Of a stretch of 46,286 nucleotides of DNA, positions 30,669-35,546 are shown one piece after another. How positions within the stretch are numbered: the first letter of the stretch is position 1; each line of letters begins with the position of its first letter. The DNA lies in assembly GCA_014799925.1 (NCBI GenBank), contig JAAVHC010000011.1, positions 1 through 46,286 on the forward strand. The letters run 5' to 3'. The translations under genes were made by a program, and so were the position numbers. The DNA is from Oscillibacter sp. (lineage in GTDB: Bacteria > Bacillota > Clostridia > Oscillospirales > Oscillospiraceae). The notes under the pieces are model-generated. The model was not told the DNA's origin. It made no database searches and worked only from the letters and a program-made list of their open reading frames with translations.

Positions 30669-31112
30669 TTACAGCTTCTTGAAGAGCGCGGCGCTCCAGA
30701 ATTCCATGCCCAGCTCATCAATGTAAAAATGCAGAATTGCCCGATGGTCCTTCGTTGCTGTACCCAGCATGAGATACTTCGCCTCCGGCCGGACCTGCTC
30801 CTCCACATAACGAAACAGCGCGGAGCCTACGCCCCGGGAACGGTAAGCGGGCTTCACATAGAGTTCTTCCACCTCAAAATAATCTGTGCCATCCGGTACG
30901 ACCGCGCCTTGATTTTTTGACTTTTTTAGCTTTCCAAACAGATATCCAATGATCTCGCCGCTTTCTTCCGCGATGAAAACGCGGTTTCCCTCCAAATTGC
31001 CGCGCCCATTCTTTCGGTATCCATGGCAGCTGTTTTCCGCTTCCCAGTCCGCAGACATGGTTATCAGCGTCAGGACAATCTCGTCTGTAAGCGGAACTTC
31101 CCTAGTCACCAT
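30669..31112 (-). CDS. GNAT N-acetyltransferase
   Basis: 147 aa, one GNAT domain: FIAEESGEIIGYLFGKL, YFEVEELYVKPAYRSRGVGSALFRYVEE (acetyl-CoA loop RSRGVGSA) and LGTATKDHRAILHFYIDELGMEF. Acceptor unknown. ATG 31112 follows the cdsA stop by 7 bp with GGAGG inside the cdsA end; the frame to 31145 runs into cdsA. It is an unusual passenger between cdsA and dxr, probably cotranscribed. Confidence 0.85.
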   Translation of the reverse strand: MVTREVPLTDEIVLTLITMSADWEAENSCHGYRKNGRGNLEGNRVFIAEESGEIIGYLFGKLKKSKNQGAVVPDGTDYFEVEELYVKPAYRSRGVGSALFRYVEEQVRPEAKYLMLGTATKDHRAILHFYIDELGMEFWSAALFKKL

Positions 31113-31119
31113 TCCGGCG

Positions 31120-31950
31120 TCAGCCTCCGACGCAGCGCCAGCCAACCTGCATCAGCTCCATCAGCGCCGCCAGCACGGGAGCGACAAACAGCACGCTGTC
31201 AAACCGGTCCAGCACCCCGCCGTGGGCCAGGAAAATCTTTCCGTAGTCCTTCACGCCGAACTCCCGCTTGATGAGGGAAAAGCTCAAATCGCCGATCTGT
31301 GCCACCACGCCGCAAAACAGCGACAGCACCGCCATGGCGCCATAGCTTAATATACCGCTGGCTCCATAGAACCAGTGCCTCATAACGAATACGAACAGCA
31401 GACCGCAGACCACATTGCCCGCCAGTCCGCCGACGGCTCCCTCCACCGTCTTTTTGGGACTCACTTTAGGGGCCAGCTTATGCCTGCCGATGGCAAGGCC
31501 CGTGAAATAGGCGAAGGTGTCGCAGGCAAAGCTGAGAATAAAGGGCAGCAGCAGATACCCCCGGCTGACGCCGCTGGCATAGATGCGCAGGAACGAGGAG
31601 AAGGAGTATCCGATGGCGATGCCGCCGAACAGCACCGCCGCAATCTGGTGAAATCGCACCGCGCCGCCCTTAAAAACGGCGTAAGTAAACACGACCAGCG
31701 TAGACAGGATGAACCATACGCCCACATACTGCGGGCGGTCATAGAACCACTCCACTGTCATGCATGGGATAAGCACGGCGGCAACCGCCAGAAAGGTATC
31801 CCGTTCGCCTCCCACGCAGCGGTACAGCTCATTGCCGCCGATGCCCGCCAGCAGCGCCAGCGCGCCCAGCAGCAGCGGCGGGGGGCCCCACAGCACCACA
31901 TACAACAGAACCGGCACACCCACTGCCGCCACTAAAATTCTTGACTTCAT
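31120..31950 (-). CDS. cdsA: Phosphatidate cytidylyltransferase
   Basis: 276 aa, about eight membrane segments. Makes CDP-diacylglycerol from phosphatidate and CTP. The family signature appears near the C terminus: SLIKREFGVKDYGKIFLAHGGVLDRFDSVLF, and the middle has FACDTFAYFTGLAIGRHKLAPKVSPKKTVEG. It overlaps uppS by 4 bp (ATGA), the classical uppS-cdsA pair. Confidence 0.96.
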   Translation of the reverse strand: MKSRILVAAVGVPVLLYVVLWGPPPLLLGALALLAGIGGNELYRCVGGERDTFLAVAAVLIPCMTVEWFYDRPQYVGVWFILSTLVVFTYAVFKGGAVRFHQIAAVLFGGIAIGYSFSSFLRIYASGVSRGYLLLPFILSFACDTFAYFTGLAIGRHKLAPKVSPKKTVEGAVGGLAGNVVCGLLFVFVMRHWFYGASGILSYGAMAVLSLFCGVVAQIGDLSFSLIKREFGVKDYGKIFLAHGGVLDRFDSVLFVAPVLAALMELMQVGWRCVGG

Positions 31951-34296: not shown

Positions 34297-34369
34297 GCGC
34301 CAGATAAGCATCAAAAGATAACTTTTTGGCGCGAAACCGCGTCTTGTTTATAAATTTTATTGGACGGCA

Positions 34370-34398
34370 TTGACAAAATTCTTTGGATATGGTATTCT
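34370..34398 (+). promoter_or_regulatory. Sigma-A type promoter of the double-GNAT leader
   Basis: TTGACA (34370-34375), 17-nt spacer and TATTCT (34393-34398). The start would be near 34405, only about 20 nt before the leader ORF. Confidence 0.8.
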
Positions 34399-34424
34399 CA
34401 CTCCCGGAAAGGCAGGTGAATGGC

Positions 34425-34481
34425 ATGAAAACAGCAATCAACCGGTTCGGGGATATTTGCCATTCACTGTCCGCAGCCTGA
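34425..34481 (+). CDS. Putative leader peptide MKTAINRFGDICHSLSAA
   Basis: ATG 34425, 18 codons, TGA 34479-34481. AGGTGA (34414-34419) lies five bases upstream. The ORF starts about 20 nt after the predicted transcription start and encodes one arm of the antiterminator in codons 6-10. It has no membrane or signal character. A ribosome-stalling leader is the natural reading; I do not recognise it as a known leader. Confidence 0.6.
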   Translation: MKTAINRFGDICHSLSAA

Positions 34482-34516
34482 CGCGGCTGCTGCCGGAGAG
34501 CAGAATGGCGAACTTC

Positions 34517-34544
34517 AGCGTTCCCGAAGCCGGGAACGCTTTTT
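34517..34544 (+). terminator. Intrinsic terminator upstream of the double-GNAT gene
   Basis: AGCGTTCCCG (34517-34526) with CGGGAACGCT (34531-34540), loop aagc, then a T-run to 34544. It sits between promoter and gene, 25 bp before the start codon, so it can only serve as an attenuator. Confidence 0.85.
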
Positions 34545-34568
34545 GTTTTGCCGCGAGAAGGAGTTTTT

Positions 34569-35546
34569 ATGGCTGTAAAACCTGTACTGCTCTCCGATTT
34601 CACCGACTCTCGCTTTCAGACCGCCTTTCAGACATATTTCACCGAGTTGGGCATTTCCATCCGGGGCTGGGACGGCCTGTTTCAGGAAATGAACGGCGAG
34701 GGAAACAACCTTGCCTACCTCCTGCTGGATGATGAGGGAGGGACCCTTGGCTTTCTGCAATTCCAGCTCACCGGCTTCTCCAACTGGTTCTTTGAGGAAT
34801 CCGTTGGCTTCATCAGAGAATTTTGGATTGACCCGGCGCACAGGCGGCAGGGATATGGCAGGATGCTTTTACATCTGACGGAGACATACTTTGTGGAACA
34901 TGGCGCGCATCGCGCCGTTCTGACCGCTGACGACGCCTTGGCGTTCTACCTTGCCAATGGCTATTCAATCGCGCCCGGGGTCAGGGCGAAGAACAAGATG
35001 GATGCTCTGGTCAAGAATTTATTGGGCTCAAAGGAATCAGCGGCGAAATTCAGGGAGCATTGGAAAAACATTACAATAAAGGAAGTTACTGCCCCTGATG
35101 CGGAATTTTTATCCCGATTGATGAATGACCCCTCCGTCATGAAAGCTCTGCATGAGCCCCCGACGCAGAAGAGCGATTGGATGGAAGCTGTCCGCGCCTG
35201 GAAAGAAGACGATGATGAGGCGGGATACATCATTTTTGATGGCGCTGTTCCGATTGGGTGGTTTGCGGTGAACGGACTGTTGACAGACGGGCGGAAAGCG
35301 TTCTTGAAAATGGCGGTCCTGCTGCCTGCTTATCAGGGGAAACATATTGGCAGATATGTACTGTCCCAGATCCTGGAGCGTTTGAAGGTCAAGGGCTATC
35401 AATCGGTTATATTATTTACGGATCAGGATAATTTTGCAGCGCAAAAGTGCTATGCAAACTGTGGATTCAAAATTACGGATGCTTTGATCGAGGAAATGCC
35501 GGATCATACTATGGTCGCTCGCTGTAAAATGGAATGCCGGCTTTGA
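34569..35546 (+). CDS. Tandem double-domain GNAT acetyltransferase
   Basis: 325 aa. The N-terminal GNAT domain (about 1-150) has GFIREFWIDPAHRRQGYGRMLLHLTE with an intact acetyl-CoA loop (RRQGYG). The C-terminal GNAT domain (about 165-325) has FLKMAVLLPAYQGKHIGRYVLSQILERL and NFAAQKCYANCGFKI. Fused GNATs include antibiotic and mycothiol acetyltransferases, but no specific subfamily is recognised and the substrate is unknown. ATG 34569 has AAGGAG (34558-34563) upstream. The gene lies behind a leader ORF and attenuator, the kind of control known for ribosome-targeting drug resistance. The 3' end meets a dispersed repeat. Confidence 0.8.
   Translation: MAVKPVLLSDFTDSRFQTAFQTYFTELGISIRGWDGLFQEMNGEGNNLAYLLLDDEGGTLGFLQFQLTGFSNWFFEESVGFIREFWIDPAHRRQGYGRMLLHLTETYFVEHGAHRAVLTADDALAFYLANGYSIAPGVRAKNKMDALVKNLLGSKESAAKFREHWKNITIKEVTAPDAEFLSRLMNDPSVMKALHEPPTQKSDWMEAVRAWKEDDDEAGYIIFDGAVPIGWFAVNGLLTDGRKAFLKMAVLLPAYQGKHIGRYVLSQILERLKVKGYQSVILFTDQDNFAAQKCYANCGFKITDALIEEMPDHTMVARCKMECRL

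Follow-up and report, generated by a model that had tools for sequence, protein, structure and literature searches.

A leader with alternative pairings ahead of a GNAT fusion gene

The question raised by this locus is whether the 200 nucleotides ahead of a gene for two fused GNAT domains form a switch operated by the ribosome and, if they do, what the ribosome would be reporting. The locus lies in a stretch of 46,286 nucleotides, hereafter the window, from an Oscillibacter sp. genome (2.97 Mb in 84 contigs). An initial annotation of this DNA had proposed ribosome-mediated attenuation, and the parts that it named (a promoter, an 18-codon ORF with a Shine-Dalgarno sequence (SD), a terminator and mutually exclusive pairings) are all present at the positions claimed (Table 1). 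Their order is promoter, extended SD, 18-codon ORF and strong terminator, followed by the GNAT-GNAT fusion gene. The antiterminator forms 12 pairs with one bulge, as had been described, and the region around 34459-34465 has the two alternative partners assigned to it, pairing at 10 of 10 positions upstream (stem S) and at 9 of 10 downstream (inner stem). A fourth stem, L, additional to that description, connects the leader ORF, at its end, with the GNAT SD; it has 6 bp in the window and is not predicted to form there.

Table 1 Features of the leader and of the gene behind it, in window positions.
Feature	Position	Strand	Basis or remark
Sigma-70-type promoter	34370..34398	+	TTGACA, 17 nt, TATTCT; TG before second hexamer; 10 of 12 matches
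Extended SD of leader ORF, AAGG-C-AGGTGA	34409..34419	+	Direct reading; conserved in alignment A3
Stem S 5' arm (SD end to AUG), putative anti-antiterminator, GTGAATGGCA	34416..34425	+	Pairing, covariation
Leader ORF, 18 codons and stop, peptide MKTAINRFGDICHSLSAA	34425..34481	+	ORF translation
Antiterminator 5' arm, within leader ORF	34442..34453	+	Pairing, covariation
Inner stem 2:3, 5' arm, competitor of stem S	34456..34465	+	Pairing, alignment
Stem S 3' arm, leader codons 12-15	34458..34467	+	Pairing, covariation
Long-range stem L 5' arm, immediately 3' of leader stop codon	34482..34487	+	Pairing, covariation
Inner stem 2:3, 3' arm	34503..34512	+	Pairing, alignment
Intrinsic terminator: hairpin 34517-34540 and U-tract	34517..34549	+	Consensus scan, folding, covariation
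Antiterminator 3' arm, overlaps terminator	34521..34533	+	Pairing, covariation
Long-range stem L 3' arm, immediately 5' of GNAT SD	34550..34555	+	Pairing, covariation
SD of GNAT gene, AAGGAG	34558..34563	+	Direct reading
GNAT-GNAT fusion gene, 325 aa	34569..35546	+	N domain ~1-152, C domain ~163-325

The extended SD fills columns 7-17 of an alignment of 19 leaders (A3, see below) in the form AAGG-x-AGGTGA, which we take to be a near-full complement of the 16S rRNA tail. Since its 3' part also belongs to stem S, the ribosome is in competition with the hairpin for these bases. A comparable promoter (TTGACA...TAtaaT) stands at the equivalent position at loci L009-L012.

Folding energies were compared with those of 200 shuffled sequences, none of which equalled the terminator hairpin (-18.4 kcal/mol, z -5.5), the antiterminator with the inner stem (-46.9 kcal/mol, z -4.9) or the whole 200-nt leader (z -3.55). 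The minimum-energy fold of the free RNA contains the terminator and the inner stem and lacks the antiterminator. Consensus scans returned 7 terminator-like sites where 3.9 are expected and 4 promoter-like sites where 1.8 are expected; by themselves such scans carry little weight, and the case against chance, as read from the sequences, is a comparative one.

The leader recurs before GNAT genes in Clostridia

Thirty-three leaders were compared overall, drawn from the order of the window and a few Clostridia beyond it. A blastn search with the 200 nt against 60 genomes matched 11 at E <=0.01, the source genome included, and the leader is present in seven of these, namely the source genome, G018, G020, G017, G009, G006 and G035, the last from another genus (the weak matches L016-L018 were left out of the reading). 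Within the genus, 7 of 25 genomes encode the GNAT N domain; six of the seven genes carry the leader and the seventh (G021) carries a second leader class, described below. Scanning one genome per species (84,980 species) for this domain gave 92 relatives, and among the best 80, sorted by pattern, 20 showed this leader and 28 the second class, which left 32 without either. Those 20 are all MAGs, and their titles include Oscillospiraceae, Ruminococcaceae, Lachnospiraceae, Eubacterium and Ruminiclostridium, and the closest named relatives of the window GNAT within the same best 80 of 92 are MAGs of Oscillibacter sp. and Oscillospiraceae.

A covariance model of the leader (R1), run on 394 genomes of the order, had matches at E <=1e-3 in 45 of them; 10 places score at least 45 bits, and nine of these were absent from the model's seed. 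All 10 precede GNAT genes (by Pfam): the window fusion, a triple GNAT of 471 aa (L123), double GNATs (L125, L128, L130) and single GNATs (L124, L126, L127, L129, L131). The layout at L131 is the same in a largely different sequence. Below 45 bits, L132-L140 alone were read, and none of these is a leader with a GNAT behind it. Two of these weak matches, L136 (from about 1507) and L132 (reverse strand), have a short ORF, a strong SD and a terminator ahead of genes that read as helix-turn-helix regulators (a 65-aa ORF in L136) instead of GNATs, and are perhaps, from their sequence, a cousin of the GNAT leader switch.

A second model (R2), whose seed includes many of the leaders found with R1, gave matches in 4 of the 391 genomes searched from the class (one of them, L152, new) and in 12 of 71 genomes in the genus of G617; among 398 genomes of the phylum it matched the window alone, under strict filters that lose weak matches. 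A candidate second copy in the source genome, the single match beyond the window (18.9 bits, E 0.5), was discarded as it reads as coding sequence. No Rfam family matched the window at its gathering score; below threshold there were three matches within 34300-34620, the best being Phe_leader. The GNAT protein had no tblastn match in plasmid and phage records, and viral contigs held no relative of its N domain; four leader-pattern matches in viral contigs, with no GNAT after any of them among the ORFs printed, were taken as chance. A prior description of the leader was not found in the open-licence papers searched.

Alternative structures are conserved with compensatory changes

The initial annotation had named conservation of the leader ORF and pairings in relatives and covariation across homologous leaders as checks of its proposal; both are borne out, and stem S, the antiterminator and the terminator covary, as does stem L. 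Covariation was scored on A3 (19 leaders, without L094 and the insertion-bearing L076 and L083) and on a larger alignment, A4 (26 leaders, also without L128, L129, L152 (a later find) and L159). In the structure made of stems S and L and the terminator, 95.1% of cells pair across the 19 leaders, 15 of 26 pairs have changed on both sides, and the covariation score is 0.315 against 0.191 in shuffled alignments. For the alternative structure (antiterminator, inner stem and stem L), 82.6% of cells pair with 16 of 28 pairs changed on both sides in the 19 leaders (score 0.303, shuffled 0.187), and 79.6% with 18 of 28 in the 26 leaders (0.259, shuffled 0.177). None of 500 shuffles reached any of these three scores, and the percentage paired likewise lay above all 500 for both structures; displacing the structures by 1-3 columns lowered the paired share to 30-51% of cells. 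These figures carry two caveats: relatedness survives the shuffling, and the MAFFT alignment of the variable region is doubtful. Nor are the leaders independent, since L127, L129 and L159 are close relatives, as are L098 and L105.

Taken singly, stem S pairs in 97.4% of cells (3 of 10 pairs changed on both sides) and stem L in 93.5% (5 of 6) over 19 leaders, and the antiterminator core in 91.8% (6 of 8) over 26. The inner stem is the weak part, with 70.5% of cells paired in 19 leaders and 67.6% in 26. One measure, the count of further pair types, gave no clear excess over shuffles: its value was reached by 223 of 500 for stems S and L with the terminator (19 leaders), and by 6 (19 leaders) and 40 (26 leaders) of 500 for the antiterminator structure. 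A short, SD-bearing ORF stands upstream of an intrinsic terminator in the window and its relatives, and an antiterminator overlapping both is conserved by covariation; the comparison of sequences shows the leader ORF, stem S, antiterminator, terminator and stem L to be conserved with compensatory changes.

Some loci depart from this layout. At L076, L083 and L128, the leader ORF is separated from the GNAT by roughly 80-370 nt of extra sequence, rich in inverted repeats, lying within or next to the terminator, parts of which stand on both flanks. At L094 and L160 a leader of the same class has a decayed-looking terminator and an ORF extending across the stem L arm; it may be a switch that has fallen out of use.

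A second leader class before the same GNAT family

The second class, found by pattern at 28 of the best 80 of 92 relatives (L033, L038, L047, L051, L070 and L090 among them; a stricter pattern gave 13 of 80), resembles the first in placing a short ORF and alternative pairings before the same GNAT family. Its ORF is typically MKxNRVWRAHEI followed by a stop codon, or a variant of it, with GGAGGG inside the ORF and CCCTCC at the stop codon. Because this CCCTCC can pair with the GGAGG of either the ORF or the gene's SD, and no terminator was seen, control is presumably translational, and we regard the class as probably a translational attenuator on its sequence. Three of its loci had no Rfam match, and in 14 of 20 genomes chosen from the GNAT loci the pattern matched once, anywhere in the genome. 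That relatives of this GNAT also have a second type of leader independently supports a ribosome-related signal.

Predicted effect of ribosome position on the antiterminator

Leaders were folded with a ribosome mask of 15 nt either side of the first P-site nucleotide and a terminator still lacking its last 4 nt, and the readout was the mean share of the terminator 5' arm paired with the leader ORF. Thirty leaders entered this folding (L076, L083, L128 and the near-copies L155-L158 were omitted). Antiterminator pairing rose from 0.04 without a ribosome to 0.60 with one on codon 1, and fell to 0.31 on codon 2, 0.11 on codon 3, 0.01 on codon 5, 0.00 on codons 8 and 12 and 0.08 on codon 15; a second, weaker maximum appeared at the last codon (mean 0.30). 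Shuffling the arm lowered the codon-1 mean to 0.13. For 20 of the 30 leaders the real value lay above all 30 shuffles, while five to nine shuffles matched or exceeded it in L013, L032, L100, L124, L126 and L131 and 26 did so in L094. The window leader scored 0.67 at codon 1 and 0.21 free, with one of 30 shuffles as high. Exceptions were the leaders weak at codon 1 (L013 0.36, L126 0.17, L124 0.03, L131 0.03, and L094 0.00, where the terminator was mis-detected) and L089, in which the antiterminator forms without a ribosome (0.76). The antiterminator is therefore predicted to be freed mainly with a ribosome on codon 1.

Moving the edge of the footprint along 29 leaders (L094 further omitted for its mis-detected terminator) gave 0.62 up to +16, 0.26 at +20 and 0.15 at +22, and by pairing probability the median limits of the antiterminator arm are +21 and +31. 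Once the terminator was complete, an edge at +16 left antiterminator pairing above 0.4 in only 4 of 29 leaders, so antitermination in this model must be kinetic. The mean accessibility of the GNAT SD over 29 leaders was 0.39 in free RNA and 0.36 with a ribosome on codon 1, compared with 0.46 for a ribosome at the stop codon and 0.48 with the 5' arm of stem L masked, a weak modelled effect that is at most suggestive of translational control by stem L.

Start-codon arrest as the candidate signal

The conservation and covariation of the pairings support ribosome-mediated attenuation ahead of the GNAT gene, and we regard it as highly probable that the leader region is a regulator and as likely that it is a ribosome-controlled transcription attenuator working as a sensor of start-codon arrest. 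Without arrest, stem S (SD with codons 12-15) would trap the antiterminator arm in its loop or, alternatively, passing ribosomes would cover that arm, and the terminator would stop transcription. A ribosome arrested on the start codon would cover about 16 nt from the A of the AUG, and stem S could not form because this ribosome holds the SD and AUG. The freed arm, just past the ribosome edge (+18 to +29 in the window), would then pair with the 5' half of the terminator, and the antiterminator, stacking on the inner stem before the terminator is completed, would let RNA polymerase read through; once the mRNA is full length, stem L, next to the GNAT SD, may provide a further, translational level of control. 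The two weakest steps are the physiological signal, probably an inhibitor that arrests initiating ribosomes, and the role of the GNATs, which presumably acetylate such an inhibitor.

Leaders of erm and cat genes also place a short ORF before a resistance gene with alternative RNA pairings, and they depend on specific stalling peptides, whereas in the GNAT leader the peptide looks secondary. Drug-specific, peptide-dependent stalling of this kind, inside the leader or at its stop codon, is an improbable account of the GNAT leader. The reading frame is kept in 28 of 33 leaders, which would suit a functional peptide, and in the folding a ribosome placed on the last codon likewise gives antiterminator pairing, above 0.5 in 10 of 30 leaders (L010, L032, L071, L089, L100, L125, L127, L130, L152, L159), as stalling at the stop codon would require. 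However, the residues that recur in many leader peptides, RFG and CHS, are encoded by the very codons that must pair, the remaining codons vary, in five leaders (L103, L123, L130, L131, L094) the anti-SD arm is read in another frame, and ribosomes inside the leader at codons 5, 8 and 12 give next to no predicted antiterminator. We hold with moderate confidence that the position of arrest matters more than the peptide, and start-codon arrest is the more likely sensor than a drug-specific stalling peptide.

Arrest on codon 1 would report any slow step there. The leader could then monitor initiation in general (initiator tRNA, formylation, (p)ppGpp or cold) and not a drug; for the fthC uORF motif, control through initiation speed has been suggested (PMC11109978). 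Such a role is quite unlikely here, given that the genes behind the leader are varied GNATs, none recognised as an initiation or one-carbon gene, and that a second, unrelated leader class precedes relatives of the GNAT. An attenuator answering to amino-acid starvation, as in trp, phe or his leaders, could draw on the sub-threshold Phe_leader match (27.6 bits, E 0.01; gathering score 55) and is very improbable, as the leader has no run of codons for one amino acid, no codon enrichment was seen, leader peptides differ between genera and the genes that follow are GNATs. A plain terminator beside a chance short ORF, with no regulatory role, would fit scans only modestly above chance and is hardly credible when stem S and the antiterminator covary beyond 500 shuffles and the entire set of elements recurs before GNATs.

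Start-codon arrest has precedents. In Bacillus subtilis vmlR, a uORF in an anti-antiterminator hairpin is combined with an antiterminator and an intrinsic terminator, several different uORF peptides work, and there is a structure at the gene's SD (PMC9226507). Its inducers, retapamulin and lincomycin, are expected to stall initiating ribosomes, the signal that we propose for the window leader, and a 30S toeprint is reported 16 nt downstream of the start-codon A (PMC9226507). The likeness is one of layout and proposed mechanism: the vmlR uORF has 3 codons against 16-24 in the GNAT leaders, its SD is single-stranded before the hairpin whereas theirs is itself the anti-antiterminator arm, and vmlR encodes an ABC-F ATPase instead of a GNAT (PMC9226507). 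The E. coli topAI leader toiL likewise has a uORF that reports several antibiotic classes, with start-codon sensing, but it unmasks the topAI SD, with Rho termination following from repression, where the GNAT leader has an intrinsic terminator; stalling anywhere in toiL is proposed to work, in contrast to mainly codon 1, as predicted here (PMC12121999). On this view the principle is a known one and its setting is new: a conserved attenuator that probably senses start-codon arrest and governs GNAT arrays.

GNATs behind the leader

The window protein belongs to the GNAT superfamily by profile and fold, and the earlier statement that it has no recognised substrate agrees with database searches: across 26 NCBIfam families no curated cut-off was reached (best rimI, 49.3 against 86.4; best named resistance model ArsN2, 42.1 against 125), and four GNAT domains searched separately all fell below the cut-offs. 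It shares fold and profile with named GNAT resistance enzymes (AAC(6'), Sat4 and others), but remains below every curated NCBIfam cut-off tested. The N-domain structure model (pLDDT 93.7) retrieved generic GNATs only within the structures searched for a substrate. As for the genes concerned, an attenuator placed before a GNAT is supported, and the leader is not tied to one particular GNAT, as several types and fusions follow it. Extra GNAT genes also occur in the operons, with three in a row at L031, a GNAT and a double GNAT at L094, and a GNAT and a 475-aa triple GNAT at L105, and the operons examined encode between one and four GNAT domains each.

The balance leans towards antibiotics inducing the gene behind the leader, whereas detoxification of the inducer by the GNAT is a tentative idea with slightly less than an even chance. 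The widest reading, in which one start-codon-arrest sensor RNA absent from Rfam governs chromosomal, shuffled GNAT arrays in Clostridia as an inducible acetyltransferase resistome against inhibitors of initiating ribosomes, is doubtful; if true, this hidden resistome would perhaps target natural products without known acetylating resistance. Should the start-codon-arrest reading be right, attenuation of this kind, known from ABC-F genes, would extend to acetyltransferases in Clostridia, and the question of which translation inhibitor the GNATs acetylate would become testable. The covariance model of the leader would then be a sequence handle for inducible resistance or stress GNATs that protein annotation leaves unnamed, because the leader would mark which GNATs answer to arrested ribosomes. 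Elsewhere in the window, a minus-strand ORF at 30669-31145 (158 aa counted from a mechanical start) also looks like a GNAT.
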